Below are positions 4,213 through 45,995 of a DNA stretch of 64,000 nucleotides, in pieces (position 1 is the stretch's first letter; each line of letters opens with the position of its first letter). A program made the position numbers and the translations under genes. The notes below the pieces were generated by a model. That model was not told the origin of the DNA and did not search any database. It was given only the letters and a program-made list of their open reading frames with translations. The stretch is from Saprospiraceae bacterium (GTDB lineage: Bacteria; Bacteroidota; Bacteroidia; Chitinophagales; Saprospiraceae): the NCBI GenBank assembly GCA_020627535.1, contig JAHDGU010000006.1:124001-188000 (forward strand), read 5' to 3'.

Positions 4213-5538
4213 ATGGCCACTCCTCGCAAAGTTGCATTACATACGCTAGGTTGTAAGCTCAACTACTCTGAGTCTTCCCAGCTAGGAAGACAATTCATGG
4301 ATAAAGGTTACAGTTTGGTCAAGTTTACAGAGGAGGCAGATGTCTACGTCATCAATACCTGCTCCGTTACAGACTTTGCAGACCGCAAGTGTCGCAAGGC
4401 CATTAGAGACGCACGCAGATCCAATCAGGATGGGATGGTCATCGTCACAGGTTGCTATGCCCAGCTCAAACCAGAGGAGATCTCCAAGATCGACGGGGTG
4501 AATCTTGTCCTTGGTGCTGCGGAGAAGTGGAAAATGCTTGACTATGTCGACGAGTATGCACACACAGGGCTGAGCGGCATGGTGCATTGTGGTAATATCG
4601 CTGATCATCAAGAGTTTTCTGGATCGTATAGCGTCAAGGACCGAACAAGAACCTTTCTCAAAGTGCAGGATGGATGTGACTACAAGTGTAGTTTTTGCAC
4701 GATTCCACTTGCGAGAGGCAAGAGCAGGAGTATGAAGCCAGAGGAAGTGCTGACGCAAATCTCCTTCTTGGAAAATGAGTCGACAGTACAGGAAATCGTA
4801 TTGACGGGGATCAATCTTGGGGACTATGGACTCATTCATGATGGAGAGAAGACCACGAGACAGCATAGCTTTTGCGATCTGGTCAAGATGATCGATGAGA
4901 GCTCAGGTATCCCGAGATTTCGTATATCAAGCATAGAGCCCAATCTCTGCGATGATGATATCATAGAGTATGTGGCTTCCGCCAAAAGATTTATGCCGCA
5001 TTTTCACATGCCACTTCAATCGGGCAGCGATACTCTTCTCAAGAGTATGCGACGGAGATATAAAAGTGGCCTCTATGCGGAAAGGGTCGGAAAGATCAAA
5101 AGCCTCATGCCTCATGCATGTATAGGTGTCGATGTCATAGTAGGATATCCTGGAGAGTCTGAAGAATACTTCCTAGAGACTTGCCAGTTTTTGGACAAGC
5201 TGGACATCAGCTACTTGCATGTGTTCACCTACTCCGAAAGAGCGAATACACATGCGGATGGTCTAGGAGATGTGGTGCCTATGAATGTGAGGAGAGAGCG
5301 CAACGCCATATTGCGAGAGTTATCTACCAAGAAGCGGCGGAGCTTCTATCAGCAGCACCTGGGCACAGAGCGAGCGATACTTGCAGAGAATAAGCGCAAT
5401 GGTGATATGCTGGAAGCCTATACGGACAATTATATCCGCGTGAAAATCAGCCATGAAGCCGTGAGGCCAAACCAGATACTTCAAGTAAGACTTGAAGAAA
5501 TAGATACCGATGGCGTGGTTATCGGCAGTATGATCTAA
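4213..5538 (+). CDS. mtaB: MtaB, tRNA t6A37 methylthiotransferase
   Basis: Radical SAM methylthiotransferase that adds the 2-methylthio group to t6A at position 37 of ANN-decoding tRNAs, using two 4Fe-4S clusters. The N-terminal cluster cysteines are in HTLGCKLNYSES (residue 14), VINTCSVTDF and VTGCYAQL; the radical SAM motif CDYKCSFC (C-x3-C-x2-C) is at about base 4676-4700, and a TRAM-like RNA-binding end follows. The start is placed at ATG 4213 (MATPRKVALHTLGCK) because homologues begin just before TLGCKLN; the frame is open upstream to 4162 but that part overlaps the TPR gene and is not family-like. 441 residues, normal for the family. GCKLN with a C-terminal tail favours MtaB over MiaB or RimO. 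Its 3' end overlaps the convergent glycosyltransferase gene by 4 bases. Confidence 0.93.
   Translation: MATPRKVALHTLGCKLNYSESSQLGRQFMDKGYSLVKFTEEADVYVINTCSVTDFADRKCRKAIRDARRSNQDGMVIVTGCYAQLKPEEISKIDGVNLVLGAAEKWKMLDYVDEYAHTGLSGMVHCGNIADHQEFSGSYSVKDRTRTFLKVQDGCDYKCSFCTIPLARGKSRSMKPEEVLTQISFLENESTVQEIVLTGINLGDYGLIHDGEKTTRQHSFCDLVKMIDESSGIPRFRISSIEPNLCDDDIIEYVASAKRFMPHFHMPLQSGSDTLLKSMRRRYKSGLYAERVGKIKSLMPHACIGVDVIVGYPGESEEYFLETCQFLDKLDISYLHVFTYSERANTHADGLGDVVPMNVRRERNAILRELSTKKRRSFYQQHLGTERAILAENKRNGDMLEAYTDNYIRVKISHEAVRPNQILQVRLEEIDTDGVVIGSMI
4974..4987 (-). repeat. dispersed hairpin motif, GGAA-loop form (exact copy)
   Basis: Minus strand TTTTGGCGGAAGCC within mtaB, which is coded on the + strand; the complement is read as Ala-Ser-Ala-Lys. 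Confidence 0.7.
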
Positions 5539-6656
5539 GTAAGCTGGTCTATCAGCATGGAGATGTGCTGAGCACTCGCATCCCAACTGAATTTTTGTCT
5601 TTGCGACCTTCCTTCTTCGATAAGTTGATTTCTAAGATTTTTGTCCTTCGATAGTTTGGTCATTGCTTGTGCAATGCTATCTACCGATGTGGGATCGACG
5701 AGAAGACCTGCCTTACCCGCGACTTCTGGCATAGAGCTACAATTGCTGGTGATCACGGGCACATCACAAGTCATCGCCTCCAATATGGGAACACCGAAGC
5801 CTTCGTTGAGGCTCGGGTAGACCAGTGCGAATGCAGAAGCAGTGATTTTAGCAAGGAGACCTTGCTCCTGATAGGGTAGGAAGATAATATCTTCCTTGAC
5901 AGGACTGTTGTCAAAGCTTTTTTTGATCTCTCCTGTCTGCCAGCTCATATCTCCTACGATCACCAACTTGATCTCAGAGCTATCCCGAGCAAACTGCTCG
6001 TAGGCTTTGATGAGCCGATGGACATTCTTTCGCGGATGTAGAGCTCCGATGAATAGGAAGTAAGGCTTGCCACTGGTGAACCTTTGACGGATTTCTGCAG
6101 CGGCAGGTTCTTCTACAGGCTTGTAGACTTCTTTGACACCATTGTAGGCGACAGACAGTTTTTCTGATGGCAGATCAAAGCGTTCAGCTATATCCTTCTT
6201 GACAAACTGCGAGACCGTGACGACATGCTCGGCCTTACGCAGATACCTGGGTGTGTAGTATTCATAATATTTCTGTACGAGCCAAGGTACTTGGCCAGGG
6301 TAATGTGCCCATGCCACGTCATGACAGACCATCAGCGTAGGACATTTGGCCGTCAGGCTCATCATCCCATCCATACTGATGAAAATGTCAATGTCTTCCT
6401 TATCGATCACACGTGGTATACCGGTCTCAAACCAGAGTAGCCAGAGTAGAGGGTGTCGGGCTTGAGGCCAGAGCTTGTGGGGAGTGATGTGGCTTTCGCC
6501 AAAAAGGAATCTGTCGTCGTACGACCGATCAAAGAGAAAGTGAAACTCATCATCAGGTCGTAGTTTGACGAGGCGCTCACAGATTTCGTGAGTATACCAC
6601 CCGATGCCTTCTAGGCGATCAGGAAGGAGAAAGCGCGTATTGATAGCAATCTTCAC
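5535..6656 (-). CDS. GT4 family glycosyltransferase
   Basis: 373-residue retaining glycosyltransferase of GT-B fold, GT4 family, probably acting in the cytoplasm on a nucleotide-sugar donor for surface polysaccharide or lipopolysaccharide. The N-terminus MKIAINTRFLLPDRLEGIGWY has the glycine-rich acceptor-side loop; AYNGVKEVY and FLFIGALHPRKNVHRLI mark the start of the donor domain; EGFGVPILEAM is the E-x7-E motif that contacts the donor, followed by the usual VPVITSNCSSMPEVAGKAG. Specificity cannot be read from the sequence. It lies 9 bases downstream of the GT-C type membrane protein gene, so the two are likely one operon. One exact copy of the dispersed hairpin motif (6491-6504) lies near its 5' end. 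Confidence 0.88.
   Translation of the reverse strand: MKIAINTRFLLPDRLEGIGWYTHEICERLVKLRPDDEFHFLFDRSYDDRFLFGESHITPHKLWPQARHPLLWLLWFETGIPRVIDKEDIDIFISMDGMMSLTAKCPTLMVCHDVAWAHYPGQVPWLVQKYYEYYTPRYLRKAEHVVTVSQFVKKDIAERFDLPSEKLSVAYNGVKEVYKPVEEPAAAEIRQRFTSGKPYFLFIGALHPRKNVHRLIKAYEQFARDSSEIKLVIVGDMSWQTGEIKKSFDNSPVKEDIIFLPYQEQGLLAKITASAFALVYPSLNEGFGVPILEAMTCDVPVITSNCSSMPEVAGKAGLLVDPTSVDSIAQAMTKLSKDKNLRNQLIEEGRSQRQKFSWDASAQHISMLIDQLT
6491..6504 (-). repeat. dispersed hairpin motif, GAAA-loop form (exact copy)
   Basis: Minus strand reads TTTTGGCGAAAGCC. The 3-bp stem GGC/GCC closes a GAAA loop. It lies in the GT4 gene, where it is read as codons for Phe-Gly-Glu-Ser, a different frame from other copies. 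Confidence 0.7.
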
Positions 6657-6665
6657 GAATATCGT

Positions 6666-8111
6666 CTAGCCTTTCTTTTCAAAAATGCAAAACTCGAAGT
6701 GACCTTTCCAGTACTTCATGTCAGCGCAGTGTTGCTGTTCGAATCCTTCTGTGAGCAGCAGATCCTTGGTGATTTTCCCTTCTACGGGACTATACCACTG
6801 ATCCCATATGTAAATGGAGCCGACTGGAAGTTGGCGGATACGCTCTGCGTTCATGTACGCTTTCCCTTCCCATTGATCAAGTACATTTCGTCCTGTACCG
6901 AAGGTGAGATAAGGTGCATTGAAGTAGGTATCCATTTGGGCGAAAGCCCGATCTTGATAGTATGGTATGATCTCATCATCCACAAGGTCATTTTCTGGTA
7001 AATCCAGTACAGAAGGACTCCAAAGATGGCTTGCTGGACGAGGCAAGAAGGGATAAGCTGCAATCACTATGATGTAGAGACATACTATCCACTTTATCCA
7101 CTCCTTGTGTGGCTCTAAGAGATGCTGAAGACCATGAACACCGATAAGAGCAGCAAAAGGGACGACAGAGAAGAGCACTCTCGGCAAACCCATACTCCCA
7201 AAGCGACCAAGCTCATGCAGGATGGCATGACCAATGTAAAATCCAATGAAATTGCCAAAAATGAGAATCAACCAGATGTGACTCTCTGGATCACGTCGAA
7301 AGAATCGATACACCAGGCCAATAAGAGAAATGAGACCAATGCATATCAAAATCACATTGGGCCAATCCATGACGTATCTAAGATGCTTGATAAACGTCCA
7401 AAACTCACCGGCGGCATACGGACTTCCTGTAGGGTCGTATGTCTTGGTTGTCAGTGCCCAATGCAGAGGGAATCTCATCACCAATGCGCCAATGAGACCA
7501 AGGAATATATAGCCTGAGGCAAGCCAAGGGATGTGCCTCCATTGCTTGCGCCAAATCAGAAGTGCGGCCATGAGCATGATCGTAAGCACGCCCTCATTGC
7601 GCACGAATGGAATAAAGGCGGTAATGACGGCGGCTAGAGCATATCTCTCTTTAATGGCAAACCATGTGGAAGCGAGCAGAAATAGAGCGTAGGTGAATTC
7701 TGTCAGGCCAGAGAAAATACTCACACCGAATACAGGGCTAAATAGAATCATGACCGGCACAAAAAACCAATAACGGAGCCTATAATGAATCGCTATGCGA
7801 CAAGCCAGATAGATCCCAGTCGCAACTACGAGACTATTATAAATCTTCATACCTGTCATACCAAACTGCGAGAATGGACTCGACAAAAAGGTGAAGACTG
7901 GCTTTGCCCAGAGATTGAACAAATAGCTCTTGTAGCTCCAAGCATAGCGAGAGTAGAGGTAGTGCGTGATGCTATCTCCGGTGTCACCGGTCGTAGGATG
8001 GACACAAGATATGATGATCAAGATCAGAGCAATCAGTACACTTGTTAGCAGGGCCAATCTCTTGGCCAATAGACCGTCGTCGTCTAGAGTAAATGCTGCT
8101 CCGAGTGCCAT
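6666..8111 (-). CDS. polytopic membrane protein, probable GT-C glycosyltransferase
   Basis: 481 residues with about ten hydrophobic segments spread over the first 360 residues and a soluble C-terminal part of about 120. An acidic loop after the first membrane segment (TTGDTGDSITHYLYSRYAW) is in the place where polyprenyl-phosphate-sugar-using GT-C enzymes carry their catalytic Asp. This suggests a periplasmic-face transferase using a lipid-linked sugar, such as a PMT/ArnT-type or DUF2029-type enzyme, but I cannot name the family. It is 9 bases upstream of the GT4 glycosyltransferase gene. Start chosen at ATG 8111; no strong ribosome binding site is seen, as usual in Bacteroidota. The motif variant TTTGGGCGAAAGCCC is at 6935-6949. 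Confidence 0.65.
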   Translation of the reverse strand: MALGAAFTLDDDGLLAKRLALLTSVLIALILIIISCVHPTTGDTGDSITHYLYSRYAWSYKSYLFNLWAKPVFTFLSSPFSQFGMTGMKIYNSLVVATGIYLACRIAIHYRLRYWFFVPVMILFSPVFGVSIFSGLTEFTYALFLLASTWFAIKERYALAAVITAFIPFVRNEGVLTIMLMAALLIWRKQWRHIPWLASGYIFLGLIGALVMRFPLHWALTTKTYDPTGSPYAAGEFWTFIKHLRYVMDWPNVILICIGLISLIGLVYRFFRRDPESHIWLILIFGNFIGFYIGHAILHELGRFGSMGLPRVLFSVVPFAALIGVHGLQHLLEPHKEWIKWIVCLYIIVIAAYPFLPRPASHLWSPSVLDLPENDLVDDEIIPYYQDRAFAQMDTYFNAPYLTFGTGRNVLDQWEGKAYMNAERIRQLPVGSIYIWDQWYSPVEGKITKDLLLTEGFEQQHCADMKYWKGHFEFCIFEKKG

Positions 8112-8252
8112 GTGCCAAAGGTATGATCTCTAGCGAGCCCAAGGTCAATGTGACCAAATCATGAAGTATTGAAAATTAATGAAGTGAAAAGGTGTCTTTT
8201 TGAATCAAGCACCGTCATAAGCTCGTATTATAAAACGAAAAACTAAGAAATT

Positions 8253-9062: not shown

Positions 9063-9089
9063 AAAGAGATATTCTCTGGATTAATAAGC

Positions 9090-9127: not shown

Positions 9128-9130
9128 ATA

Positions 9131-10147
9131 TTAAAAACTGTCTCCTGCACTCCTACAGAGCACATTCATCACGACTGTCCCTACAGCTCCCAGCGTACGA
9201 CGGTCAATCTGATCCATATCATCCGTAGTCTTGTGCCAATGTGGGAAGAAAATGGAGTCTCCGCTCTGATTGAGATGGATAATGTCGATCATCTTGATGC
9301 CAGCCCGATTGACAGGTCCGTGATCATCCGTGACGCTAGGTCCGTCTTCGTCTACAAATAGATCATTGTAGCCGAGAAGCTTTGCAACATTCCAGACTTT
9401 ATCTACAATGTCGCTCGCGTACTGCCGGCTCACACCTTCCTTGGGGAAGCGAGCATCTTTGGCTCCGACCATATCGAGTAGTATCCCAAACTCTGGACGA
9501 TATCCTGGTTCGTGTCGATTTTGCGCCCAATATTGACTGCCGAGTGCCCAAGTCAAGACACTCTCTCGGGTTTGTGATTCGGAATCGCCGTGATCTTCCA
9601 GGTCAAATAGCACAATATCAACACCGATGGGCATATCGGTTTTTTCCATGAGTCGCGCAATCTCTAGGAGCACGGCCACGCCACTCGCACCATCATTGGC
9701 GGCAGGCACACCGACATCATGAAGGCTCTCATCATCTTCTGCATCCGAAAATGGACGACTATCCCAATGAGCTGATAGCATGATCCGCTTACGCTGATCG
9801 GGATTGATGACTGCGATGATATTTTTTCCTGTATAGGTCTGTCCTGTGTAGACCTTGGCGTCAAACTTCTGCAGCTTGACTTCGTGACCGTAAGACTTCA
9901 GCTTTCGGATCATCCAATTGGCACATTGTTCATGCGCTTTGGACCCAGGTACTCTTGGGCCAAATGCCAGTTGTTTCTCAATGAAGAGGTAAGCACTATC
10001 TCGAGAGAAATCAGGAAGATTAGCACAGAACTCAGAAGTCTTGTTGCTGCTGCTTGAGCTCTGACCTGAGCTGCTAGTGGTATCCTTCTTACAGGCTGTC
10101 GCCAAAATGATGATCAGGCCAAAGAGGACTATGGAGCGATATTTCAT
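9131..10147 (-). CDS. M28 family lipoprotein, glutaminyl cyclase-like
   Basis: 338 residues. The signal peptide ends in a lipobox (ILATAC, Cys 19), so this is an exported lipoprotein, followed by a Ser-rich linker. The zinc-dependent M28 fold is clear: SAHWDSRPF (His), VPAANDGASG (bridging Asp), VLFDLEDHGDSE (Glu/Asp), TDDHGPVNRAG and FFPHWHKTTDD (last His). WALGSQYWA and the order of motifs are those of glutaminyl-peptide cyclotransferases, which turn N-terminal Gln into pyroglutamate. In Bacteroidota many exported proteins begin with Gln after signal cleavage, so such a cyclase would protect them; this link is inference. A plain aminopeptidase role is the alternative. Last gene of the minus-strand run from 16474; 24 bases after cysS. 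Confidence 0.85.
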   Translation of the reverse strand: MKYRSIVLFGLIIILATACKKDTTSSSGQSSSSSNKTSEFCANLPDFSRDSAYLFIEKQLAFGPRVPGSKAHEQCANWMIRKLKSYGHEVKLQKFDAKVYTGQTYTGKNIIAVINPDQRKRIMLSAHWDSRPFSDAEDDESLHDVGVPAANDGASGVAVLLEIARLMEKTDMPIGVDIVLFDLEDHGDSESQTRESVLTWALGSQYWAQNRHEPGYRPEFGILLDMVGAKDARFPKEGVSRQYASDIVDKVWNVAKLLGYNDLFVDEDGPSVTDDHGPVNRAGIKMIDIIHLNQSGDSIFFPHWHKTTDDMDQIDRRTLGAVGTVVMNVLCRSAGDSF

Positions 10148-10171: not shown

Positions 10172-11653
10172 TTAGACAGACCAAGAGCTTCCATCTTTTC
10201 CATCTTTCACAGTGATGCCTGCAGCAGCAAGACCATCTCTGATCTTATCGGAGGTGTCCCAGTCTTTATTGGTTCGAGCGTCTTGTCTTATGTCTAGTAC
10301 GAGACGCATCACTTTGTCCAGAGCATCATGACTGCCACCACCTTCTTCTTGAGGATCATATAGCCCAAAGACATCCGTGTAGATGGCCTCAAATTCTTTT
10401 TTGGCGGAAGCCAGCAGCTCTTGAGAAATGGAATCAGCTGCGATCTTCCCATCGGCATAGCTATTGATGATGGGCACAAGTTCAAAGATCTTGGCAAGCG
10501 CCTTGGGCGTATTGAAGTCATCGCACATCTCAGCTATCGCTCCGTCGAGGATGCCTCTGATCTCTTGATCCTTGCTACCATTTGCACTACTACTCTCAAG
10601 ACTCATCAAAGTCTTGCGAGCATCACAGAGGCGCTTAAATCCCTTGTCCGCAGCTTTCAATGCATCATCAGTGAGATCCAAGGTCGAGCGATAGTGACTT
10701 TGGAGCATGAAAAACCTCAGTGCCATCGGATGATATCCCTGGGAGATGTGCTTGCTATCTCCGGAGAACAGCTCTTGAGGTGTGATGCTATTGTCTTCGC
10801 TTTTAGACATCTTGCGGCCATTCATGAGCAGCATGTTGGTATGCAGCCAGTAGCGCGCTGGTTGGCAATTGCAGGCGCCGACATTCTGTGCGATCTCATT
10901 TTCATGATGTGGAAACTTCAGGTCATTACCACCGCCGTGGATATCGAATGTCTCACCGAGATACTTCGTGCTCATCACACTACACTCAAGGTGCCAGCCT
11001 GGGAATCCTACAGACCATGGAGCATTCCATCGCATGATGTGATCGGGACTAGCCTTGATCCAGATGGCGAAGTCAGACGGGTGATCTTTTTCATCCTGAT
11101 TCTTGAGATCGTCTCTGGTCATGCTGAGTAGATCGTCGATCTTACGACCAGAGAGCTCTCCATATGCCTTACCTTCTTCGAGGTATTTCTTGGTATTGAA
11201 ATAGACACTCCCGTTTTTTTCGTAAGCGAGACCATTATCAATGATGGCTTGGACCATCTCTATTTGCTCGAGGATATGTCCAGTTGCACGAGGCTCTATG
11301 TCTGGCTTCTTCGTATTGAAGATGTCCATCATCTTGTGAAAGCCATTCATGTAGCGCTGGACGACCTCCATGGGCTCAAGATTGTGCTTGCGTGCACCCT
11401 TAGAGATACGATCCTCTCCATCATCCAAAAGGTGTCCCACGTCAGTGATATTGCGGACATATCGGACTTTGTAGCCGAGATAAAGTAGAAATCTATAGAT
11501 CACATCAAAGCTCACGAAAGTGCGACAGTTGCCAATATGAACATCGCTGTAGACAGTAGGTCCACAGACGTACATTCCTATTTTGCCTTCTGCGATGGGC
11601 TTAAACTGCTCTTTGGACCTCTTGAGGCTGTTGTAGACTTCTAGATTGTGCAT
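10172..11653 (-). CDS. cysS: cysteinyl-tRNA synthetase
   Basis: 493-residue class I aminoacyl-tRNA synthetase that charges tRNA-Cys. Visible: the first zinc ligand and HIGH region in [20 protein letters not shown] (HIGN form), the zinc/substrate site WHLECSVMS and [18 protein letters not shown], and the KMSKS loop [10 protein letters not shown]. The C-terminal DALR-like and anticodon-binding helices follow. Length is normal. It lies 24 bases upstream of the M28 lipoprotein gene and 36 bases downstream of the EEP-family gene in the same run. An exact copy of the hairpin motif (10399-10412) lies in the 3' third of the gene. Confidence 0.97.
10399..10412 (+). repeat. dispersed hairpin motif, GGAA-loop form (exact copy)
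   Basis: Plus strand reads TTTTGGCGGAAGCC: stem GGC/GCC, loop GGAA. It is antisense to cysS, where the complement is read as Ala-Ser-Ala-Lys. Confidence 0.7.
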
Positions 11654-14385: not shown

Positions 14386-16152
14386 TCAACCGCGGAAGAG
14401 TTTCTTTAGTTCGTCCAGATCAAGATGTATCAGGCATTTTCTCCCCAGCGGCTCTAGACTATGCATATCTGCTGACTGCAGACGATCAAAGAGATGTAGG
14501 ATCTCCTGACTTGTGGCTCTCGACCATCGTTTTTTGACAAGTTTCTTCGCTAGCCTTCCGGCAAAAAAACTGCCGAGCTCTTTGGATTTGGGTCGATTAC
14601 TCTTCATATCGTCAAGCAGCTCTGTGATGAGAGGCTCAAGCGATATCTCTACCATCGAGATGGCAGGTACCGAATGATTGATCCAGCTGTGATTACCAAA
14701 TTCTTCAAGCTCAAAGCCAAATGAATTGAGTGTCTTGCACAAATCCGGCATGAGACTAGCATCCGATGGGGACAAGCTGATCTGACGTGGAAATAGCTCC
14801 CGCTGTCGAGCAATGGTTTCTGTCCCTTCGATGGATCGAAGTAGAGAGTCATATATCAATTTGGCTTCGGCAGCGGATCTGTCAATCAGCACGGCACCAT
14901 CTGTGACTGGCACACAGAGATACTGTGGTGTAAGGGAGAATGCCCGATGACTTTCTTGATCAGAGAATAGGCCGGTGTCACTATCTGCTGAGGGCTCAGA
15001 AGAAGCGCTCTCGTCCAGATTGTACAGCTCTTGCCAAGCAGAAAGATTGTTGTCTTCGCGCTCTGTTGATGGTCTTGGAGACCAAGAGTCACCTTTGGCT
15101 GATCCGGTCACCGCATCAAATCCACCTGTCGCTGATCTTTCAAAATCCAAGCTAGGAATCGCTTGCGAACTTGCAAGCGCATGACGCGCAGCGACGCGCA
15201 GATAGTTGTACAAGATGCGCTCGTCCTCAAATTTCACTTCTTGCTTGCTCGGATGTACATTGACATCTACCCGACTAGGATCTAGATCTAGGAATACTAC
15301 GTATCCAGGATGAGCTTCAGGAGCAAGGAGATCAGAGTATGCTGTTCGGATCGCATGATGTAGATATGGCGATTTGAAGAATCGGTTATTTACAAAAAAG
15401 TACTGATCACCTCTGCGCTTTTTGGCGGAAGCCGGTGAGACGATAAATCCGGAGATCTTGACTAGCTCCGTGTCTTCCTCTATGCGGATGAGCTTGTCCT
15501 CCAGAGTACGTCCTAGGGCATTGATGATCCTCTGCTTGAGAGTGCTGACAGGTAGGTTGAAAACCTCTTTATCATTGTGCACCAAAGAGAAATATGTCTC
15601 CGGATATGCCAAGGCGATCCGTAGGAATTCATCTTGGATATGCCGCAACTCGACGGCATCTGATTTGAGAAATTTGTGTCGAGCCGGAGTATTGTAAAAG
15701 AGGTTTTTGATCGTAAGGATCGTGCCCTGGTTGCATGCTACTGGCTCTTGCGACTCAATCTGGGACCCAGCGATACGGATCTTGGTGCCGACGGTGTCTG
15801 CTTCCGACTTGGTTTGTAGCTCGACTTGTGCTACAGATGCGATACTAGCCAGTGCCTCTCCCCGAAAACCCATGGTCTGTATGGCTTCCAAGTCCTCAAC
15901 CGACCTGATCTTGCTAGTCGCGTGACGCTCAAAGCACATGCGCGCATCCGTGTCGCTCATACCCTTTCCATTGTCATGGACTTGGATGAGAGTTTTGCCA
16001 GCATTGGCGACCTTGAGTCTGATTCGAGTGGCGCCAGCATCAAGAGCATTCTCTAGGATCTCTTTCACTACCGACGCAGGTCTCTGCACGACCTCACCGG
16101 CCGCAATACGATTGGCAATTTTATCAGATAACAGCCTTATGACATCAGGCAT
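14386..16152 (-). CDS. mutL: DNA mismatch repair protein MutL (C-terminal endonuclease motif degenerate)
   Basis: 588 residues. MutL couples mismatch recognition by MutS to strand incision. The GHKL ATPase is intact: IANRIAAGEVVQRPASVVKEI, ENALDAGATRI (catalytic Glu and Asn), VHDNGKGM, MGFRGEALASI and the second-half motif VNNRFFKS. The linker (about 345-400) is Ser/Asp/Glu rich. The C-terminal dimerisation domain is present, but where endonuclease-type MutLs have the DQHA-x2-E motif this one reads LIDRSAAEAKLIYD, and the CPHGRP-type zinc site is replaced by EPLGRKCLI, so the metal site looks lost. It lies 4 bases after the 105-residue membrane protein gene. The exact motif copy 15420-15433 and a stem-swapped one at 14553-14566 are within it. 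Confidence 0.95.
   Translation of the reverse strand: MPDVIRLLSDKIANRIAAGEVVQRPASVVKEILENALDAGATRIRLKVANAGKTLIQVHDNGKGMSDTDARMCFERHATSKIRSVEDLEAIQTMGFRGEALASIASVAQVELQTKSEADTVGTKIRIAGSQIESQEPVACNQGTILTIKNLFYNTPARHKFLKSDAVELRHIQDEFLRIALAYPETYFSLVHNDKEVFNLPVSTLKQRIINALGRTLEDKLIRIEEDTELVKISGFIVSPASAKKRRGDQYFFVNNRFFKSPYLHHAIRTAYSDLLAPEAHPGYVVFLDLDPSRVDVNVHPSKQEVKFEDERILYNYLRVAARHALASSQAIPSLDFERSATGGFDAVTGSAKGDSWSPRPSTEREDNNLSAWQELYNLDESASSEPSADSDTGLFSDQESHRAFSLTPQYLCVPVTDGAVLIDRSAAEAKLIYDSLLRSIEGTETIARQRELFPRQISLSPSDASLMPDLCKTLNSFGFELEEFGNHSWINHSVPAISMVEISLEPLITELLDDMKSNRPKSKELGSFFAGRLAKKLVKKRWSRATSQEILHLFDRLQSADMHSLEPLGRKCLIHLDLDELKKLFRG
14553..14566 (-). repeat. dispersed hairpin motif, stem-swapped variant
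   Basis: Minus strand reads TTTTGCCGGAAGGC: the stem is GCC/GGC and not GGC/GCC, with the GGAA loop kept, so both sides changed together. In mutL, read as Phe-Ala-Gly-Arg. Confidence 0.55.
15420..15433 (+). repeat. dispersed hairpin motif, GGAA-loop form (exact copy)
   Basis: Plus strand reads TTTTGGCGGAAGCC inside mutL, which is coded on the other strand; the complement is read as Ala-Ser-Ala-Lys. Confidence 0.7.
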
Positions 16153-18468: not shown

Positions 18469-19559
18469 TGTTCCTGTATGGCTTTCGCCAAAAAGTCTTG
18501 CCACTCAGCACACCTGATCTCGGTCGAAAAGCTTTGTGACAGGTCTTGTTTTGCCTGATTGCCCAAGCGAGCTCTCATCTCAGGATCACGCGCCAAGGTA
18601 AGGAGCCCTCGTTCTAGAGCACTTTGATCAGACCACTTGACCACAATGGCATTGTGATCGTGACGGACGACCTCTGCCAATCCACCAGAATCAGTACTGA
18701 CAATAGATCTGCCGCTCGCCATATACTCCAGCAGAGTGTGAGAGATACCTTCCATAGAACTATTGAGCACGGCGATGTCATAGCAAGCACTTTTTGCGAC
18801 GGAGTTGCTGACGTGACCAGCTAGATGAACTCGATCCCCCAGCTGCAGCTCACGGATGGTTTCTTGTATCTTGTGCAGCAAGGTGCCTTCACCACAGATG
18901 ATGAGTCGCCAGTCTGGAATCTGATCCTTGATGGCATGCAGTGCCTTGATCAAAGGGATGACTCCTTTTTCTTTTTCGAGTGCTACTGTGGTCCCTATGA
19001 CGAGTTGCCCTTGCTTTACTCGCCACTCTTTGCGCAGGGCAATGACCATAGAGGGATCTGGGTCGTACGGTTCACGGAAGTTGTGTATGTGGGAGATACT
19101 TCCTCCAGCAACATAAGCATGGGAAGCTTCGATATCTCGGGCAATGTAGGCACAGGTGGTGACACTGTGATCTATCAGTCTTGTGTGACACCACTTGTCT
19201 TTCGCCTTGCTTCGAAAATCGTCTTGACGACCAATCCTCCGTATCGTAGGTATACCTGCCAGTCGAGCTGCGATGCCTCCGACTTGTACTTCTCGCCTAT
19301 GATTGAGGATGAGTAGCTGGATCTGATGGCGCTTGATATAGTGTGTCAGTTGAATTATGGCTAGGGGGTCGAAGTCAAATCTGATCTTGAGTGCATCTGA
19401 GCTTATACCGCTATGATTTTTTTGCCAATAGGGATTCTCTGGATTGGCCAGGATGTGGACTTCATGATCATGACGGGTGAGAAAGTGACTTAGTTTGAGC
19501 ATCCAGACGCTTACTCCTCGCCAGATCTTTTTATCCGAGACAAATAGGATCCTCATCAA
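18462..19559 (-). CDS. GT4 family glycosyltransferase
   Basis: 365-residue GT-B glycosyltransferase. The N-terminus MMRILFVSDKKIWRGVSVWM has the nucleotide-binding-fold first strand and the Gly-containing loop; LVIGTTVALEKEKGVIPLIKAL and WRLIICGEGTLLHKI mark the donor domain; NSSMEGISHTLLEYMASG is the E-x7-E region (Glu 277-type positions) and DSGGLAEVV the ribose-binding end. Sugar and acceptor are unknown. The start ATG overlaps the stop of the aminotransferase gene by 4 bases (ATGA), so translation is coupled. The exact motif copy 18480-18493 lies 12 bases from its stop codon. Confidence 0.87.
   Translation of the reverse strand: MMRILFVSDKKIWRGVSVWMLKLSHFLTRHDHEVHILANPENPYWQKNHSGISSDALKIRFDFDPLAIIQLTHYIKRHQIQLLILNHRREVQVGGIAARLAGIPTIRRIGRQDDFRSKAKDKWCHTRLIDHSVTTCAYIARDIEASHAYVAGGSISHIHNFREPYDPDPSMVIALRKEWRVKQGQLVIGTTVALEKEKGVIPLIKALHAIKDQIPDWRLIICGEGTLLHKIQETIRELQLGDRVHLAGHVSNSVAKSACYDIAVLNSSMEGISHTLLEYMASGRSIVSTDSGGLAEVVRHDHNAIVVKWSDQSALERGLLTLARDPEMRARLGNQAKQDLSQSFSTEIRCAEWQDFLAKAIQEHQ
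18480..18493 (-). repeat. dispersed hairpin motif, GAAA-loop form (exact copy)
   Basis: Minus strand TTTTGGCGAAAGCC, near the 3' end of the GT4 gene, where it is read as Leu-Ala-Lys-Ala. Confidence 0.7.
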
Positions 19560-29769: not shown

Positions 29770-29877
29770 GATGTGAATATCTATTTGTCCACCGAAAGTA
29801 GCCTTTTGGCCGAAAGGCATAAGGTATAAAATGTCCTATGCGTCGCAGCTGTAACGATTATTTCGTACCTTGATTAT

Positions 29878-32298
29878 ATGAAGCGCCTCAGCCTAGCAGC
29901 CCTATGTGCTCTATTGAGCTCATCTATCTCTTGGTGTCAAGTCTTACTAGAGGGTCAAGCATTGCTTGATCACTTGATGGACAAGATTACCTCTTCTCAG
30001 CGTGTATTGGATTGGGCTGAGCAGGACGAATACGTCTTGTGGTCTGTCATTTCAGAGGGACAGGGGCTAGCACATGTAGGATACCAAATAGATGGCACCT
30101 CCGATCAGGACTTGAGCAGGGACATGACTGAGATGGAATGGGAGGTGGCTCGTACCGCTCTATTGGAAGCGTTCTTGAAAGAATCGCAACGATATTGTGG
30201 TCTTGACTTGTCGATGTCTGATGTACTCATTCAAAAATCTCATGATCGACTCCCCTTCATGGTGATGAAAATCTGTGATATCGCGCTCATATCTTGGCTA
30301 CGAGATCATGTGTCCGTGAGATACATTGAGCCTTATAGCTATACAGCACATACAGATCAGCTACGTAGTGGCGAGGGATGCTCAGATTATAGTCAGATAT
30401 TGAATACGGCTGACTACGAAGAGGTAAGTCCAGATGCCATCAGTTCGTGGCATCATAAGGATCACAAGATCGACAGCGCTTGGACTAAGTCCGACAATGG
30501 TAAAGGGATCTGGATATCTATCATGGATACCGGAATCAGCGAGGACAATCCTAAGTACAATGGTGAGTTTGACGAAGGCGAATCGTCAGGGCGAAGCATT
30601 GAGAAAAATGGATACTATAACAATGACGGATGGGCAGATCAGTGTGGTCATGGCACAGCCATGATCGGTTTGGCTGTAGCGCCAAAGGGATATGACGACA
30701 GTCCTGCAGGAGTAGCTTATCGTGCAAATCTCGTTTCCAATCGCGTCAGCAATGATGTGGTCATCAATGCTGGAGCAGAGATCAATGCACTGGCAAACGC
30801 TATTACAGATGCCGCTGATGACAGCCGCGTGGATATCATCAGCATGTCACTGGGCGATATTTTCAGCCATGGACCCATCGAGGATGCTATCATCTATGCA
30901 CATGAAAAAGAGAAGCTCATTTTCGCGGCAGCGGGAACTTCTACCTTCTTCACGAATTGGTTTGGCGTGACATTTCCTGGGTCCATGGATGAGACCCTTG
31001 CGATCACCGGTGTTGTCGAGGGGACGAGTTTCTCAGAGTGTGACAATTGTCACTATGGTGATGAAGTGGATCTCGTGGTATATATGGAGCGCAGTAGCAG
31101 TGGGAACACCTGTGTGACTACAGCCAATGATAATGTCAATAGCGACTATGTGGGCTATGTAGGAGGATCCTCTGCAGCCACAGCGACCATGGCAGGAATA
31201 GCAGGGTTGATCTGGTCTGATGAACCCGATATGACAAGAGACGAAATGATTAATCGCCTGATCAAGGCAAGTAGTCACTATCCAAATAAGACATCTGATT
31301 TTGGCTGGGGAGCAATCGACGTCTGTGAGGCAGTTGCAGATTCGCTAGGGAAAGCGCCTTGTCGGTCAGGGCTAAGCAATGAAGTCATCCTGGAGATCAC
31401 GGGGATCAGCTTCCCGAGCACCGATGATGGGTTTGGCGATGTCGCTGAGTGGGTGGTGATCCTGGAGGAATCGTCCTACTACTTTGAGGTGCCAGAATCA
31501 GGTGGAGAAGGAAACCCGATTACCTACAACAATGAAGACCCCTGCGATCTTGCACCTATCAGGATCAATCTTGGCTCTACAGTATGCGGACAATCAAGTA
31601 TCAACATAGACCTTGAGACTCATGAGGATGACGGCTTCTCAAGCGAGTGTGAGTATAATGCCGGTGACGATGATCGCACTATCAGCGTGGAGACCATAAC
31701 ATTTGGCGGAAGCCAATTCATACAAAGTACGAGCAATGGCGACTTTGTCTTTTCCTACAGATTGTATTGCACTCCGGACTGGCAGGCCGCCATGGTCGAT
31801 GATAGCCCTAAGTGTCCTGGTGATAGTGTGCAATTTGAAGCAAGCCCGAGCGGATACACGGAGTATAGATTTTTCTTGGATGCGAATCAGAATGGCGGTA
31901 TCGACATAGGAGAACTATTGCAAGCAGGAAGCAATCACTTGTATGTGAGCAATACGATTGCCGATGGTGATCATATCGGAGTGGTCATCAATGAGACAGG
32001 AGGATGTACTGATACGGTGGTATCCGTAGTACAGATGATCAGTCCTGACTATGCAGGGTCCAATCGCCTCGTCGGGGTGCTTGCAGGATACCATGACTAT
32101 GAGACCAATGATGACATAGAGTCTGTGCAGGTTCTGTCACCCACTGCAGTGGTCGACTATGACGCAGCTCGATCAGTATCGCTCTTTGAGGGATTTGAAG
32201 TGCAGCAAGGAGCCATATTCGAGGCGTTCATTGATGGATGTAACGATGGTGGTGGAGGCACACATCTCCAAGAAGAGGAAGGGTCGGGTGACCGATGA
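29878..32298 (+). CDS. secreted S8 (subtilisin-like) protease with C-terminal coathanger-like domain
   Basis: 806 residues. Signal peptide (end near SSISWCQ), a propeptide region to about residue 185, then the S8 domain: Asp in WISIMDTGIS (about 216), His in QCGHGTAMIG (about 257), Ser in GGSSAATATMAGIAGLIW (about 431). Two departures: the Pro of the usual GTSxAxP is Ala, and the oxyanion-hole Asn position in IFAAAGTSTFF reads Thr. After about residue 500 come beta domains with a P-type or proprotein-convertase-like start (SNEVILEITGISFPS) and an Ig-like region. The C-terminal 70 residues carry ARSVSLFEGFEVQQGAIFE and a DGC, shared with the protein at 34267-37500. No type IX signal. The end is 4 bases from the convergent small gene. 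Confidence 0.88.
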   Translation: MKRLSLAALCALLSSSISWCQVLLEGQALLDHLMDKITSSQRVLDWAEQDEYVLWSVISEGQGLAHVGYQIDGTSDQDLSRDMTEMEWEVARTALLEAFLKESQRYCGLDLSMSDVLIQKSHDRLPFMVMKICDIALISWLRDHVSVRYIEPYSYTAHTDQLRSGEGCSDYSQILNTADYEEVSPDAISSWHHKDHKIDSAWTKSDNGKGIWISIMDTGISEDNPKYNGEFDEGESSGRSIEKNGYYNNDGWADQCGHGTAMIGLAVAPKGYDDSPAGVAYRANLVSNRVSNDVVINAGAEINALANAITDAADDSRVDIISMSLGDIFSHGPIEDAIIYAHEKEKLIFAAAGTSTFFTNWFGVTFPGSMDETLAITGVVEGTSFSECDNCHYGDEVDLVVYMERSSSGNTCVTTANDNVNSDYVGYVGGSSAATATMAGIAGLIWSDEPDMTRDEMINRLIKASSHYPNKTSDFGWGAIDVCEAVADSLGKAPCRSGLSNEVILEITGISFPSTDDGFGDVAEWVVILEESSYYFEVPESGGEGNPITYNNEDPCDLAPIRINLGSTVCGQSSINIDLETHEDDGFSSECEYNAGDDDRTISVETITFGGSQFIQSTSNGDFVFSYRLYCTPDWQAAMVDDSPKCPGDSVQFEASPSGYTEYRFFLDANQNGGIDIGELLQAGSNHLYVSNTIADGDHIGVVINETGGCTDTVVSVVQMISPDYAGSNRLVGVLAGYHDYETNDDIESVQVLSPTAVVDYDAARSVSLFEGFEVQQGAIFEAFIDGCNDGGGGTHLQEEEGSGDR

Positions 32299-33409: not shown

Positions 33410-34137
33410 CTGAGAGACATTTTGGCGGAAGCCCGAGCCGTGATGAGCATTTCTGTAAGTGCAGACGGATCTTCTTCTATGGCAGTGCCGATCACCAGCA
33501 TGTTGGCACCAGAGTGAAAATACTTCTCCATCATCTCCAGAGATCTAATACCTCCGCCAACAATGATCGGAATAGACACAGCAGCTGAGATCTTCCTCAC
33601 CATATCTAGAGGCACCCCGAGTTTAGCCCCACTCCCAGCTTCGAGGTAAATAGTAGCAAAACCAAGTTGCTCTGCAGCGAGTGCAGTTGCCAGAGCAATC
33701 TCAGGCTTATCTCGAGGGATGGGTAAAGTCTGAGAGATGTATTGTACGCTAGACAGCCTCCCGCCATCTACCAATAGATAGGCACAGCCCAGAGTATTCA
33801 GTCCATATTGCTTGATCAATGGAGCCGCCTCCACATGTTTACCAATAATGAGATCAGAGTTTCTGCCACTGAGGAGGCTGATGAGCAGTATTCCGTCTGC
33901 TTTGGGGCTCAACTGAAACTGTGAGCCGGGAAAGAGGTAAATCGGCCCTGAATATTGAGATCTGAGATCGGCGATGCATGTCTCAAGATTGTCTTGTAGC
34001 AAGGTGCTTCCGCCCAAAAGAAGGAGGTCTGGAGTGGCTGACCGGAGCTGAGTGTGTAGAGCTGAGCCGCAGGTATATCGATCAGGATCAACCAATACAG
34101 CAAGTTTTCTATCAGATTTTTCAAGAACAAAGCTCAT
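33406..34137 (-). CDS. geranylgeranylglyceryl phosphate synthase-like protein
   Basis: 243-residue TIM-barrel prenyltransferase. Enzymes of this family join a polyprenyl diphosphate to sn-glycerol-1-phosphate; Bacteroidota members form the group II type. Features: LAVLVDPDRY (first strand), LLLGGSTLLQ, LFPGSQFQLSPKADGILL, IYLEAGSGAKLGVP (the YxEAGSG substrate site) and IPIIVGGGIRS with IGTAIEED (phosphate-binding ends). A candidate -7 box TACTTTTG sits at 34142-34149 on the minus strand, only 4 bases before the ATG, so a leaderless message is possible. It overlaps rsgA by 4 bases. Whether it makes an ether-type lipid here is not known. The exact motif copy 33420-33433 is near its end. Confidence 0.9.
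   Translation of the reverse strand: MSFVLEKSDRKLAVLVDPDRYTCGSALHTQLRSATPDLLLLGGSTLLQDNLETCIADLRSQYSGPIYLFPGSQFQLSPKADGILLISLLSGRNSDLIIGKHVEAAPLIKQYGLNTLGCAYLLVDGGRLSSVQYISQTLPIPRDKPEIALATALAAEQLGFATIYLEAGSGAKLGVPLDMVRKISAAVSIPIIVGGGIRSLEMMEKYFHSGANMLVIGTAIEEDPSALTEMLITARASAKMSLR
33420..33433 (+). repeat. dispersed hairpin motif, GGAA-loop form (exact copy)
   Basis: Plus strand TTTTGGCGGAAGCC, antisense to the last codons of the GGGPS-like gene, complement read as Ala-Ser-Ala-Lys. Confidence 0.7.
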
Positions 34138-39350: not shown

Positions 39351-39354
39351 CGAC

Positions 39355-43133: not shown

Positions 43134-43203
43134 GAGGGGAATAGGTAAAAATCTTTCTCAATAGACGAAAGTTAAGACTTGTCAGTCAAAAAATATAGTA
43201 GGG

Positions 43204-43703: not shown

Positions 43704-44433
43704 AACTTTTCCTTTTGAGTTCAAAGTTTTTGCCGAGATAGACCTTTCTGACCATCTCGTCCGCGGCCAGCTCCTCTGCCGTGCCAGAGCGTAGGATCTT
43801 TCCCTCAAACATCAGATAGGCTCTATCGGTAATAGATAGAGTCTCCTGTACATTGTGATCGGTGATGAGGATGCCGATATTCTTGGTCTTGAGCTGCGCT
43901 ACGATGCCTTGGATATCTTCTACTGCTATCGGATCGATCCCCGCGAAGGGCTCATCTAGCAGGATAAAATCGGGGTCCGTCGCCAAGGCTCGTGCAATCT
44001 CAGTCCTTCTCCGCTCTCCACCAGAAAGCGAATCACCGCTATTGCTCCTTACCTTGTGAAGACCGAATTCGTCAATCAGGAGCTCTAGGCGATCCTTGCG
44101 CTCAGTTTTCGTATAGCTTGTCATCTCCAGGACTGCCATGATATTGTCCTCGACGCTGAGCTTGCGAAATACCGAGGCCTCCTGAGGCAGATAGCCTATC
44201 CCTAGTCTGGCTCGCTTGTACATGGGCAGTCCGGATATCGGTTTTTGATCTAGATAGACTTCACCATCACTCGGCTTCACGAAGCCCACGATCATGTAGA
44301 AGCTCGTAGTCTTGCCAGCACCGTTGGGTCCGAGAAGTCCGACGATCTCACCACGATTGACTTCTAAGCTCACCTCATTCACTACTCGTCGGCGACCGTA
44401 GTACTTTACCAGGTTGTCAGCTCTCAAGATCAT
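43693..44433 (-). CDS. lptB: LptB, LPS export ABC transporter ATPase
   Basis: 246 residues. LptB is the cytoplasmic ATPase of LptB2FG, which pulls lipopolysaccharide from the inner membrane onto the Lpt bridge. Walker [18 protein letters not shown]-loop region [13 protein letters not shown], signature [16 protein letters not shown], Walker [14 protein letters not shown] and the switch His in ILITDHNV are all present; [13 protein letters not shown] and [11 protein letters not shown] are LptB hallmarks within the ABC family. It overlaps the Ig-like lipoprotein gene (4 bases, upstream) and small lipoprotein A (11 bases, downstream). No lptA, lptC or lptFG in the window. Confidence 0.95.
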
Positions 44434-45995
44434 AGCTCAGGCATCATTATTTCTACTTCAACATCCCAACCAGCACGGAGATTGTTGATTTCTTCTCGAT
44501 AAATATATTCTTCAGGACGTCTATTGACGAATGATCCTTGATCTCGGCGGCCATTTTGATTTGTATCTAGATGGATCTCGATCGTGTGTTTGGTGACTTC
44601 AAGCTCTCCCCACGAGATGGATATTTGGCTTGTACTATCGATCACTTTGGTTTGCAGTCTTTGAGATCCTGATGCGAGCGTGACGATATACTGTTTGGTG
44701 CTGTCTAGATTGGTGATATCTGAGAGGAGGACAGATCTATCTTTTGGCTCTTTCACTCGGATCCTCAAAGTATCTAGGCTGTTTACTTGATCATAGCAGT
44801 CTGTGATGCTGCCTTCCGGCAAAATGAACTCGTACTCGCGCTTTGGTTCCCACGCACCTGTGACGCGCAAAACCCGTGGATCCGTCTCAGAGATAGACAG
44901 AGCCAGACTCACAGCACCAAGAGAATCACTCGCTCTAGCACTGTCTGGTAGCATGTCCGAGATAGGGTTGGTCCACTTGATCATCAGTGGCTCATTGGCT
45001 GCTACTCCATAGCTATTGCTCCCAAGATCCCTAGAAAAGCTGCGATATCCTAGGCTGTCTTCTGGGACTTTGAGAAGAGCCGTGTCTTGTTCATCGCTGG
45101 TCTCGAGTATAAGTTTTTCGATAGGGGCTTTCGCCCAAATGAGGATGCTATCATTGACAGCTTCTTGCCACAAGATCAAGCTGTCTTCTAGATATACCTT
45201 GTCTGTCTTCTGATTGCACTCTACACGGTAATAGAGTCGATTGATCTCCTTGAGTCGAGAGCCTTGTAGGGGCGGTGACTCTTGGATGAGCGATAGGTCC
45301 TGCTCTGTCTGATTCCCATCTAAAACAAACGGATCATTTTGGCGAAAGCCGATCTTTTCCTTCCCGAGTTGATACTGTAGGTCTTGTGTCTCATCCTTGA
45401 TCGCAATGAGGTAGAAGCTATCCATCGCGAGATTTTTCAGCTCATAGCGACCGTCCTCATCTGTGTAGCTCAGATAGTCGGGTTCTCCTCGGATAAAACT
45501 ACTATCCTCGAGACTCCTGTAGAGCATCACCACAGTACCCGCAGAGGGCTTGCCTGTGGCCTGATCTGTCACGCTGCCGGTCACACTCAAAGAATCAAGA
45601 TAGCTACCTGTAGAAAAGACAAATCGCAGATTTTCATAAGGATTGGACTCATTGAGATCCGCGATTGCATTGCCAAATTGGAAGGAGTATGTGGTGTTAG
45701 CCCGGAGCTCTTCTTCTTCGTCAAACTCTACCCGGAGCTCTTTGCCGCGAACCGAGTATCTAGGTCTCTTGCCCAGCGGTGGCGATACGACGACATTGGC
45801 ACGCTGATCGAGTTGTATGTACTCATCGAATACTAGTATAAATCCATCTTCGTCAAAATTGGTCTGTTCGTCGGGTGTGGATTCTTCGAGATCGATGACT
45901 GGTGCATCTTCATCTTTGGGTCCACCTCCTAGATTACCGCTGCTAGCGCAAGCTAAACAGAAGATGAGGACAGATGAATAGACAAAGTATCGCAT
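44430..45995 (-). CDS. Ig-like domain lipoprotein upstream of lptB
   Basis: 521 residues. Lipobox at FCLACASS (Cys 16), then an Ig-like (Big_5-type) domain at about 30-125: [58 protein letters not shown] carboxypeptidase-regulatory-like beta domain follows (about 135-215, [20 protein letters not shown]) and then further beta domains to the end, where [20 protein letters not shown] is reminiscent of a calcium-binding turn. Conserved in Bacteroidota in my memory; function unknown. It is joined to lptB by a 4-base overlap. The gene holds one exact hairpin motif (45337-45350) and variants at 44811 and 45125. Confidence 0.82.
44811..44824 (-). repeat. dispersed hairpin motif, stem-swapped variant
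   Basis: Minus strand TTTTGCCGGAAGGC, identical to the copy at 14553-14566 but read here as Leu-Pro-Glu-Gly, a different frame. Confidence 0.55.
45337..45350 (+). repeat. dispersed hairpin motif, GAAA-loop form (exact copy)
   Basis: Plus strand TTTTGGCGAAAGCC, antisense to the Ig-like lipoprotein gene, complement read as Gly-Phe-Arg-Gln. Confidence 0.7.

Follow-up and report, generated by a model that had tools for sequence, protein, structure and literature searches.

The 64,000-nucleotide stretch analyzed here (the window; positions 124,001 to 188,000 of contig JAHDGU010000006.1, Saprospiraceae bacterium, GCA_020627535.1) includes genes that Pfam, in agreement with the first-pass annotation, assigns to a radical SAM (mtaB-like) protein, two glycosyltransferases, cysS, mutL, an aminotransferase, an AhpC-TSA (TlpA-like) protein and a Big_5 Ig-like protein. 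Dispersed across the window are 23 copies, strictly defined, of a small DNA hairpin, compared with about 1.3 expected by chance as scaled from the codon shuffle below. Nine had been reported as exact copies of 14-base words; all nine lie where, and on the strand, they had been placed, with a dinucleotide-shuffle expectation of 0.00-0.01. An Rfam scan of the window matched nothing except one tRNA. The copies are listed here, with hyphens setting off the loop.

4974..4986 (-): TTTGGC-GGAA-GCC, antisense in radical SAM (mtaB-like) gene 4162-5538 (+)
6346..6358 (+): TTGGCC-GTCA-GGC, rare loop, possibly a chance match
6491..6503 (-): TTTGGC-GAAA-GCC, sense in glycosyltransferase 5535-6656 (-)
6936..6948 (+): TTGGGC-GAAA-GCC(C), 4-bp stem, antisense in ORF 6666-8111 (-), without a Pfam hit
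10094..10106 (-): TTTGGC-GACA-GCC, sense in peptidase M28 gene 9131-10147 (-)
10400..10412 (+): TTTGGC-GGAA-GCC, antisense in cysS 10172-11653 (-)
14553..14565 (-): TTTGCC-GGAA-GGC, flipped stem, sense in mutL; missing in relative L071, with no gap
15421..15433 (+): TTTGGC-GGAA-GCC, antisense in mutL; L071 identical at 16/16 bases over the compared stretch
18480..18492 (-): TTTGGC-GAAA-GCC, sense, 3' end of glycosyltransferase 18462-19559 (-)
19700..19712 (+): TTTGGC-GAAA-GCC, antisense in aminotransferase 19556-20701 (-); L071 keeps 15/16
29077..29089 (-): TTTGGC-GAAA-GCC, sense in AhpC-TSA (TlpA-like) gene 27847-29820 (-)
29806..29818 (+): TTGGCC-GAAA-GGC
30921..30933 (+): TTTCGC-GGCA-GCG, sense in subtilase gene; relative has the same IFAAAG, without the hairpin
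31702..31714 (+): TTTGGC-GGAA-GCC, inside subtilase gene
33421..33433 (+): TTTGGC-GGAA-GCC, antisense, close to the 3' end of ORF 33406-34137 (-)
44811..44823 (-): TTTGCC-GGAA-GGC, sense in Ig-like (Big_5) gene
45126..45138 (-): TTGGGC-GAAA-GCC(C), 4-bp stem, sense in Ig-like (Big_5) gene
45338..45350 (+): TTTGGC-GAAA-GCC, antisense in Ig-like (Big_5) gene
47051..47063 (+): TTTGCC-GGAA-GGC
47886..47898 (-): TTGCGC-GACA-GCG(C)
53364..53376 (-): TTGCGC-GCAA-GCG(C)
54120..54132 (+): TTGGAC-GAAA-GTC(C)
57328..57340 (-): TTGAGC-GAAA-GCT(C)

A hairpin family over-represented genome-wide

The source genome (G000; 4,089,995 bases, 99.7% complete) contains 351 exact copies of TTTTGGCGRAAGCC (178 forward, 173 reverse) and none of its reversed-pattern control (0 + 0), an excess larger than the one initially noted. 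This 14-mer is merely the commonest variant within a stem-variable hairpin family with the consensus 5'-(C)(A/T)TT(T/C/G)-xyC-GN(A/C)A-Gy'x'. The family occurs about once per 2,300 bases with random-like spacing (mean 2261, sd 2503), which extrapolates to some 1,750 copies per genome. Independence from protein reading frame, asserted in the first-pass annotation, is supported. The excess withstood the refutation test set there, permutation of synonymous codons within ORFs (352 ORFs, 415,734 nt, 40 shuffles): 169 wider-family hairpins were observed against a mean of 8.7 (sd 2.7, max 14), and 39 exact 14-mers against 0.6 (max 2). The dinucleotide and codon shuffles and the reversed control rule out chance and codon usage as the origin of these counts.

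Pairing is conserved while the letters of the stem change

The hairpin conserves pairing in its stem while the letters change. At sites matching TTNxyCGN(A/C)AG, picked blind to pairing, both inner stem pairs were present in 196 of 296 cases in the source genome (permuted mean 51.7, max 72; 2000 permutations). Observed (permuted) values were 59/96 (13.9) in G030, 66/167 (14.8) in G027, 39/66 (11.0) in G179 and 22/33 (4.0) in G038; motif-free relatives gave 4/114 against 7.2 permuted. The two variable pairs form 13 distinct paired stems in the G000 sample and 15 in G027. Pairing kept despite changes of letter suggests that a protein recognizes the DNA as a folded single strand.

The covarying stems confirm the hairpin proposed at first, but not its GNRA loop. 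Loop counts (GNAA 167, GNCA 32, GNGA 6, GNTA 5) instead define GN(A/C)A, whose third position tolerates C but avoids G, with GNGA not above background. A DNA energy model scores GAGA and GAAA equally (-3.4 kcal/mol), and thermodynamics therefore does not explain the loop choice. The stem spans 3-4 bp, closed by C-G and otherwise free in sequence; beyond the fourth pair, pairing is not consistent across genomes. In 78 GGC-stem sites taken without selection for the flank, each T of the TT flank is present at 99%. Active avoidance of a fifth pair by the flank was considered and dropped because genomes disagree: G000 has too few of the partner A (P 0.002), G179 has an excess (P 0.009), and G030 and G027 show neither.

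Free stems, together with the origin of copies by substitution described below, would also suit a functionless mutational by-product, in which template switching at C-GNNA-G perfects short palindromes. We regard this as quite unlikely, as it leaves unexplained the TT flank, the 3-4 bp stem limit, the avoidance of GNGA and GNTA, the lineage-specific flank letters and the scarcity of copies in very long ORFs (2 copies in 26.4 kb of such ORFs against 167 in the other 389 kb; P 0.0009 in a post hoc test).

A DNA-level element on either strand

In a 464 kb sample of the source genome, 176 of 199 copies sit within ORFs, 85 of them sense and 91 antisense to transcription. These equal counts identify a DNA element rather than an RNA: the hairpin acts at the DNA level, on either strand, as had been suspected. 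An RNA hairpin operating in transcripts, another option raised initially, draws on the resemblance of GAAA and GGAA loops to RNA GNRA loops; given the strand counts, the use of GNCA loops with GNGA at background, and an Rfam scan yielding just a tRNA, it is scarcely credible.

The orientation check likewise shows no bias to contig strand (95 plus, 104 minus in the same sample, with contig strand standing in for replication direction), nor within 180-200 kb stretches (38/41 in C5, 40/47 in C8). These counts bear on another possibility, that a chromosomal protein of the replication, recombination or repair machinery binds the hairpin as single-stranded DNA, for loading, for priming or as a Chi-like stop, and that selection on cell function maintains the copies. 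The sequence-specific loop and flank and the random-like spacing are consistent with such a site. Chi-type and priming sites, however, are expected to show strand bias, and patchiness within genera (below) is odd for a housekeeping role, making this explanation somewhat improbable.

Copies arise by substitution

Alignment gaps against the congener L071 overlap 0 of 12 window sites, and turnover is quick, with 2 of the 12 compared sites retained. In the subtilase gene, the peptide IFAAAG is conserved in the relative and the hairpin is not; comparison of orthologues had been suggested in the first-pass annotation. The hairpin arises via substitution, not insertion. Excerpts of PMC2397512 describe neisserial uptake words as highly conserved, gained often by recombination and less by point mutation. 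The divergence in the L071 comparison is far larger than that behind the neisserial conservation.

A mobile-element target or residue read as single-stranded DNA, whether by a Y1 transposase (RAYT; an early suggestion) or a DGR-type reverse transcriptase, would share the plan of RAYT and DGR hairpins, a free stem with a fixed loop or flank. Insertion scars are nevertheless found at none of the 12 compared sites, and most copies lie within ORFs. Moreover, Y1_Tnp (PF01797) has no match in eight of the 27 motif-rich genomes (G000, G029, G179, G185, G044, G191, G218 and G271), with at least one in each of the remaining 19, and RVT_1 (reverse transcriptase) is absent from 16 of the 27, G000 included. 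For the Y1/RAYT and reverse transcriptase families, a mobile-element origin is largely refuted, and mobile elements in general are a very unlikely source. REP sequences are repeated hairpins with a fixed 5' tetranucleotide, read single-stranded; they are longer, intergenic and accompanied by a Y1 transposase, unlike these 13-nt, mostly genic copies in a genome without a Y1_Tnp match. In the excerpts of PMC3240598, the DGR target hairpin has a free GC-rich stem of 7-10 bp and a fixed 4-nt loop, GRNA, lies beside the variable repeat and serves reverse-transcriptase homing. The hairpin studied here differs in its 3-4 bp stem, its GN(A/C)A loop and the lack of RVT_1 in G000.

Patchy distribution and dialects

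Counting in related genomes, also recommended at first pass, identified clear carriers in 30 of 298 Saprospiraceae genomes and nothing comparable in 388 other Bacteroidota genomes sampled. Presence is patchy inside genera (motif/control counts of 206/15 in G027 vs 11/10 in G292), which fits a lineage-specific exchange signal more easily than a housekeeping site. Flank and loop letters vary by lineage, forming dialects. Among the top words of the motif-free genomes G007, G022 and G032 (140-160 kb each), no alternative hairpin word appeared.

Density, dialects and patchiness would also accord with a self mark for a defense or nuclease system that degrades incoming single-stranded DNA lacking the hairpin and spares DNA bearing it. 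In keeping with this, no motif-rich phage was seen: the 24 viral stretches listed for the one 16-mer searched carry one copy each. That count covers a single stem variant in viral contigs without assigned hosts, however, and no candidate nuclease was found; we consider such a mark unlikely.

Candidate recognizer and uptake machinery

A search for a co-occurring binding protein had been proposed; ours found none whose distribution matches the motif. Motif-rich and motif-free genomes together encode ComEC (55/56) and DprA (52/56); DUF5689 is strong in 18/27 motif-rich vs 21/29 motif-free genomes, and its neighbor protein occurs in 17/27 vs 21/29. None of the four tracks motif presence, and we rejected each as its determinant. 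The motif-rich genome G205 (84% complete) matched neither the DUF5689 nor the neighbor profile, and G071, G210 and G266 gave only weak matches. The 932-aa neighbor in G000, encoded by a receptor-like gene adjoining the DUF5689 gene (Pfam domains), matches CarbopepD_reg_2, CarboxypepD_reg and Plug, all under Pfam cut-offs. For the DUF5689 protein, no solved structure was matched at a useful E-value (best 0.86).

The type IV pilus ATPase (PF00437) is matched at E 0.001 in 51 of 56 genomes; only six reach the cut-off: a strong partial match in G213 and five borderline ones at about 25 bits. With up to 28 candidates per genome scored, no convincing ATPase was found in the 56 genomes, which disfavors type IV pilus uptake.

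A putative structure-coded self-DNA signal

At a probability of roughly 0.4, our preferred interpretation is that the hairpin, read on single-stranded DNA, signals self DNA through its structure and that biased uptake or recombination has spread it; it would work like the uptake words of Neisseria and Haemophilus but not belong to them. The original suggestion of a DNA uptake or genome-identity word remains the best reading, as a putative one. In its favor we count the covarying stems, the balance of strands, the codon-shuffle result, the origin by substitution, the dialects, the patchy presence, the scarcity of copies in very long ORFs, the alternation of strands in G000 described below and the competence-type proteins of that genome. 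Against it stand competence genes that do not track the motif, the failure to find a convincing pilus ATPase, the fixed sequence of the known uptake words, the quick turnover of sites and the lack of alternation in G027. We propose that the recognizing protein makes base contacts in the flank and loop of single-stranded DNA and senses the stem by shape alone. Hairpin-bearing DNA would be favored during uptake or recombination of own-kind DNA, and biased exchange would then lift copy number, as with Neisseria and Haemophilus uptake words, but structure-coded. The likely point of action would be after strand separation, in uptake that needs no pilus, as in Riemerella (an outer-membrane protein with DUF5689 and HHH proteins, ComEC and DprA). 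As in this type IV pilus-independent competence, G000 encodes proteins of such kinds, judged by Pfam domains alone: ComEC with an adjoining HHH_3 protein, DprA and DUF5689.

HIP1 (cyanobacterial GCGATCGC) and Chi are dense genome-wide words of fixed sequence, Chi with a strand bias; the hairpin differs from both in its unfixed stem, and from Chi in having no such bias. DUS (Neisseriaceae) and USS (Pasteurellaceae) are also fixed sequences, taken up by a type IV pilus route. Like the hairpin, they occur as hundreds to thousands of short copies within genes, strongly over-represented on both strands and with lineage dialects. Unlike DUS and USS, the hairpin has a free stem in which pairing alone is kept, no convincing pilus ATPase accompanies it, and its uptake role is putative. 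Lineage dialects of DUS and USS are described in excerpts of PMC3630211, and those of PMC2397512 report such words to be rare in diversifying or acquired genes.

The element may, more tentatively, represent a new class of genome-wide signal, a folded single-strand shape that identifies self DNA, differs in dialect between lineages and is read per strand in pilus-independent exchange in Bacteroidota. The known uptake words are, to our knowledge, fixed sequences and none is a hairpin, and we know of no described short word dispersed over coding DNA with base pairing conserved instead of sequence. We found no earlier description of such a word in open-licence PMC papers, to which our search was confined, so absence from print is not proven. 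The element implies an undescribed protein that reads folded single-stranded DNA chromosome-wide; if it is a self-DNA mark, we know of no earlier uptake-specificity signal from Bacteroidota. Since motif-rich and motif-free species occur within one genus, the recognizer can be tracked down.

A further observation concerns neighboring copies. Same-strand neighbors numbered 119/260 in ten other sets pooled (P 0.19), and alternation of strands is absent in G027 (37/64 same-strand). In G000, neighbors tend to lie on opposite strands (81/210 same-strand, P 0.001), as if every strand required its own copy.

A hairpin word repeated through the genome

The first-pass annotation reported nine exact 14-mers in the window, and all nine are present in the places and on the strands assigned to them. 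In the source genome (G000; 4,089,995 bases, 99.67% complete), where the window spans 124001-188000 of contig C2, TTTTGGCGRAAGCC has 351 exact copies (178 + 173) and its reversed pattern has none. The top over-represented words of a 464-kb sample of this genome (20 stretches of 20 kb plus the window) include GGCGAAAGCC (53 copies against 0.8 expected), GGCGGAAGCC (25 against 0.5), GCCGAAAGGC (19 against 0.5), and GGGCGAAAGCCC (16 against 0.02), which are hairpins differing in their stem. The strand that carries the hairpin is written out below.

Hairpin-bearing single strand: 5'-CATTTTGGCGAAAGCCA-3'

The general form TT-N-xyC-GN(A/C)A-Gy'x' occurs 198 times in the sample (4.27 per 10 kb), which extrapolates to about 1,750 copies per genome. 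Spacing among 199 sampled copies has a mean of 2261 (sd 2503).

The two sides of the stem covary

Stems in the sample are GGC (101), GCC (34), CGC (24), GAC (12), TGC (9), AGC (6), and others. Among 78 GGC-stem sites with a GAAA or GGAA loop, picked regardless of flank, each of the two T's is present in 99% and the preceding T in 91%; across sampled sites with TT imposed, position -6 is C in 70%, -5 is A in 52% or T in 31%, -4 is T in 89%, and -1 is T in 62% or G in 34%.

Using a site set blind to pairing (TTTNNNC-GAAA-GNNN, n = 111), we found the innermost variable pair complementary at 108 sites (64.8 expected if independent), the next at 102 (60.1 expected), and the fourth at 77 (39.3 expected), with no consistent pairing beyond the fourth. 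Once duplicate contexts were removed, both inner pairs were Watson-Crick in 196 of 296 sites, against a permuted mean of 51.7 and maximum of 72 (2000 permutations); shifting the partners by one or two bases left 27 and 18 paired. Loops accompanying the TT flank are GNAA (167), GNCA (32), GNGA (6), and GNTA (5), and the same pairing test detected no pairing at the inner pair for GNGA (n = 10) or GNTA (n = 9) sites. A and C have an exocyclic amino group in common, and a protein recognizing the loop may touch this group. Covariation recurs in other genomes and is absent from three pooled motif-free ones (G007, G022, and G032; 4/114 sites against a permuted mean of 7.2).

Stem covariation in further genomes (paired/total sites, permuted mean); each value lies above all 2000 permutations
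G030: 59/96, 13.9
G027: 66/167, 14.8
G179: 39/66, 11.0
G038: 22/33, 4.0
G071: 16/26, 3.3
G129: 18/33, 6.6
G029: 14/31, 4.2
G180: 13/39, 3.3

The signal resides in DNA

Sampled copies fall in sense (85), antisense (91), and intergenic (22) positions, with one at a boundary, in sequence that is 92.5% ORF by a simple longest-ORF rule used in place of a gene finder. They divide between the plus (95) and minus (104) contig strands and use all six reading frames. The earlier contention that protein sequence cannot explain the copies holds: synonymous codon shuffling within genes (352 ORFs, 40 shuffles) leaves a mean of 8.7 hairpins (maximum 14) versus 169 observed. Sense/antisense parity, the six frames, and the shuffles point to a DNA element, not one of RNA or protein.

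Two patterns emerged post hoc. Copy density is 4.9-5.0 per 10 kb in ORFs below 1500 nt and 3.3 in those of 1500-3900 nt, and the four ORFs that reach 1300 codons or more (26,358 nt in total) contain 2 copies, compared with 167 in 389,376 nt for the remaining ORFs (Poisson P 0.0009). Two very long ORFs on contig C5 are hairpin-free (152364-162398, 3345 codons; 169729-177033, 2435 codons). Adjacent copies in the sample lean toward opposite strands, with 81 of 210 pairs on a shared strand (P 0.001); ten further sets together give 119 of 260 (P 0.19), and G027 trends the opposite way (37/64 same-strand). If real, the tendency would fit a signal required once per strand.

Copies come and go by substitution

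By MutL, in a ranking that may leave out the source genome itself, the closest named relative is L071 (JAHDBH010000013.1), a MAG from Saprospiraceae with 66% identity; the runner-up has 44%. We made codon alignments of window ORFs with their best tblastn matches in congener loci (L071, G001), covering 34,977 nt at 57.6% identity; several are only about 50% identical, so site placement is approximate, and 2 of 12 window sites are retained in place. The mutL site is identical at 16/16 bases, and at site 30921 the peptide IFAAAG is retained and the hairpin lost. Because alignment gaps touch none of the 12 window sites and one of 11 in the relatives, and because IFAAAG persists without its hairpin, we infer that copies are gained and lost by substitution, partly independently of protein.

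Distribution and dialects within Saprospiraceae

The exact 14-mer pair is present in 47 of 119 relatives, mostly of the same family. Across 298 genomes of Saprospiraceae we counted matches to TTTNNNCGAAAGNC and to its reversed control; by a hand tally, 30 of them (15 genera, counting G000) pass both of two thresholds, 60 or more matches and a motif/control ratio of 3 or more. Examples of motif/control counts are 576/7 in G000, 641/20 in G205, 694/67 in G030, 463/18 in G179, 400/14 in G213, and 206/15 in G027. Many other family members have counts at or below control, and some are intermediate. Carriage varies within genera: G292 (11/10) sits alongside G027, G178, G248, and G322, and G190 (8/14) alongside G043 (60/18). 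In a phylum survey of 394 genomes, none of 388 from outside the family passes both thresholds, the largest excesses being 68/29 (G711) and 46/20 (G624).

Lineages differ in their preferred letters. C precedes the stem in G030 (93%) and G071 (87%), T does so in 97-100% of copies in G179, G129, and G205 (9 copies in the last), and G027 favors stems TCC and TGC with loop GCAA. The G027 samples (L068, L193-L197) are also enriched in a short repeat of another kind, around TAAACTCCTAAAC.

Candidate recognizers

Gene presence was compared in 27 motif-rich and 29 motif-free genomes, hand-picked from the family survey. Y1_Tnp has no match in 8 of the 27 motif-rich genomes and RVT_1 none in 16, G000 included in both cases. 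The pilus ATPase T2SSE matches weakly in most of the 56 genomes, and six pass the cut-off (five borderline, plus one strong partial match in G213). ComEC is found in 26/27 motif-rich and 29/29 motif-free genomes, and DprA in 24/27 and 28/29.

Transformation in Riemerella anatipestifer, also of Bacteroidota, is described as using ComEC, DprA, ComF, RecA, and four non-classical proteins, among them an HHH protein of the periplasm and a DUF5689 protein with the outer-membrane protein next to it (PMC8459023). By domains, a G000 locus resembles this competence operon: on contig C19 (L323:8197-15425), a triple-DUF5689 protein, a putative lipoprotein from its signal, adjoins a receptor-like protein of 932 aa whose CarboxypepD_reg and Plug matches fall short of Pfam cut-offs. 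ComEC adjoins an HHH_3 protein in this genome, which also encodes DprA. A divergent Exo_endo_phos_3 endonuclease and a PIF1-like helicase lie beside the DUF5689 pair, and the number of DUF5689 domains per protein varies among genomes. Strong DUF5689 matches (E <1e-50) occur in 18/27 motif-rich and 21/29 motif-free genomes, and the neighboring protein (E <1e-100) in 17/27 and 21/29. G205 has no match to either; G071, G210, and G266 have weak matches only, in some cases next to each other on a single contig. A pilus-independent uptake route in the family is plausible from this gene content. Across the panel, none of ComEC, DprA, DUF5689, or the DUF5689 neighbor explains which genomes carry the motif.

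Relation to known systems

The element is a DNA-level hairpin word that covaries in its stem and forms dialects in part of one family. There is a strong argument that the hairpin is read as single-stranded DNA: intrastrand pairing is not something that a dimer binding duplex DNA through free half-sites can enforce. More tentatively, we suggest that it is a self-DNA signal spread via biased exchange. Functionally, it is probably similar to an uptake word. Known uptake words, as described, resemble it in copy number and dialects (PMC3630211) and in scarcity within diversifying or acquired genes (PMC2397512), and simulations have been used to argue that they accumulate through mutation and uptake bias (PMC1939737). 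They differ in two respects: they are fixed sequences, whereas the hairpin stem is not, and many neisserial words are argued to stem from recombination instead of point mutation (PMC2397512). In structure, the element comes closest to the DGR target hairpin, as reported (PMC3240598). It departs from each of DUS/USS, REP/RAYT, DGR, and Chi in one or more of the features tested.

Other features of the genome

At L038:674-10036 (about 140.7-150.0 kb on contig C5), three hairpin contexts are repeated at an offset of 7,618 bases, which suggests a tandem duplication, or a misassembly, of a segment of several kb. In the window, a paralogue array at 37506-43133 lies within an 11.4-kb hairpin-free gap; its three successive ORFs, of about 630 aa, carry DUF3857 and DUF3858, and the transglutaminase core is weak in two of the three.
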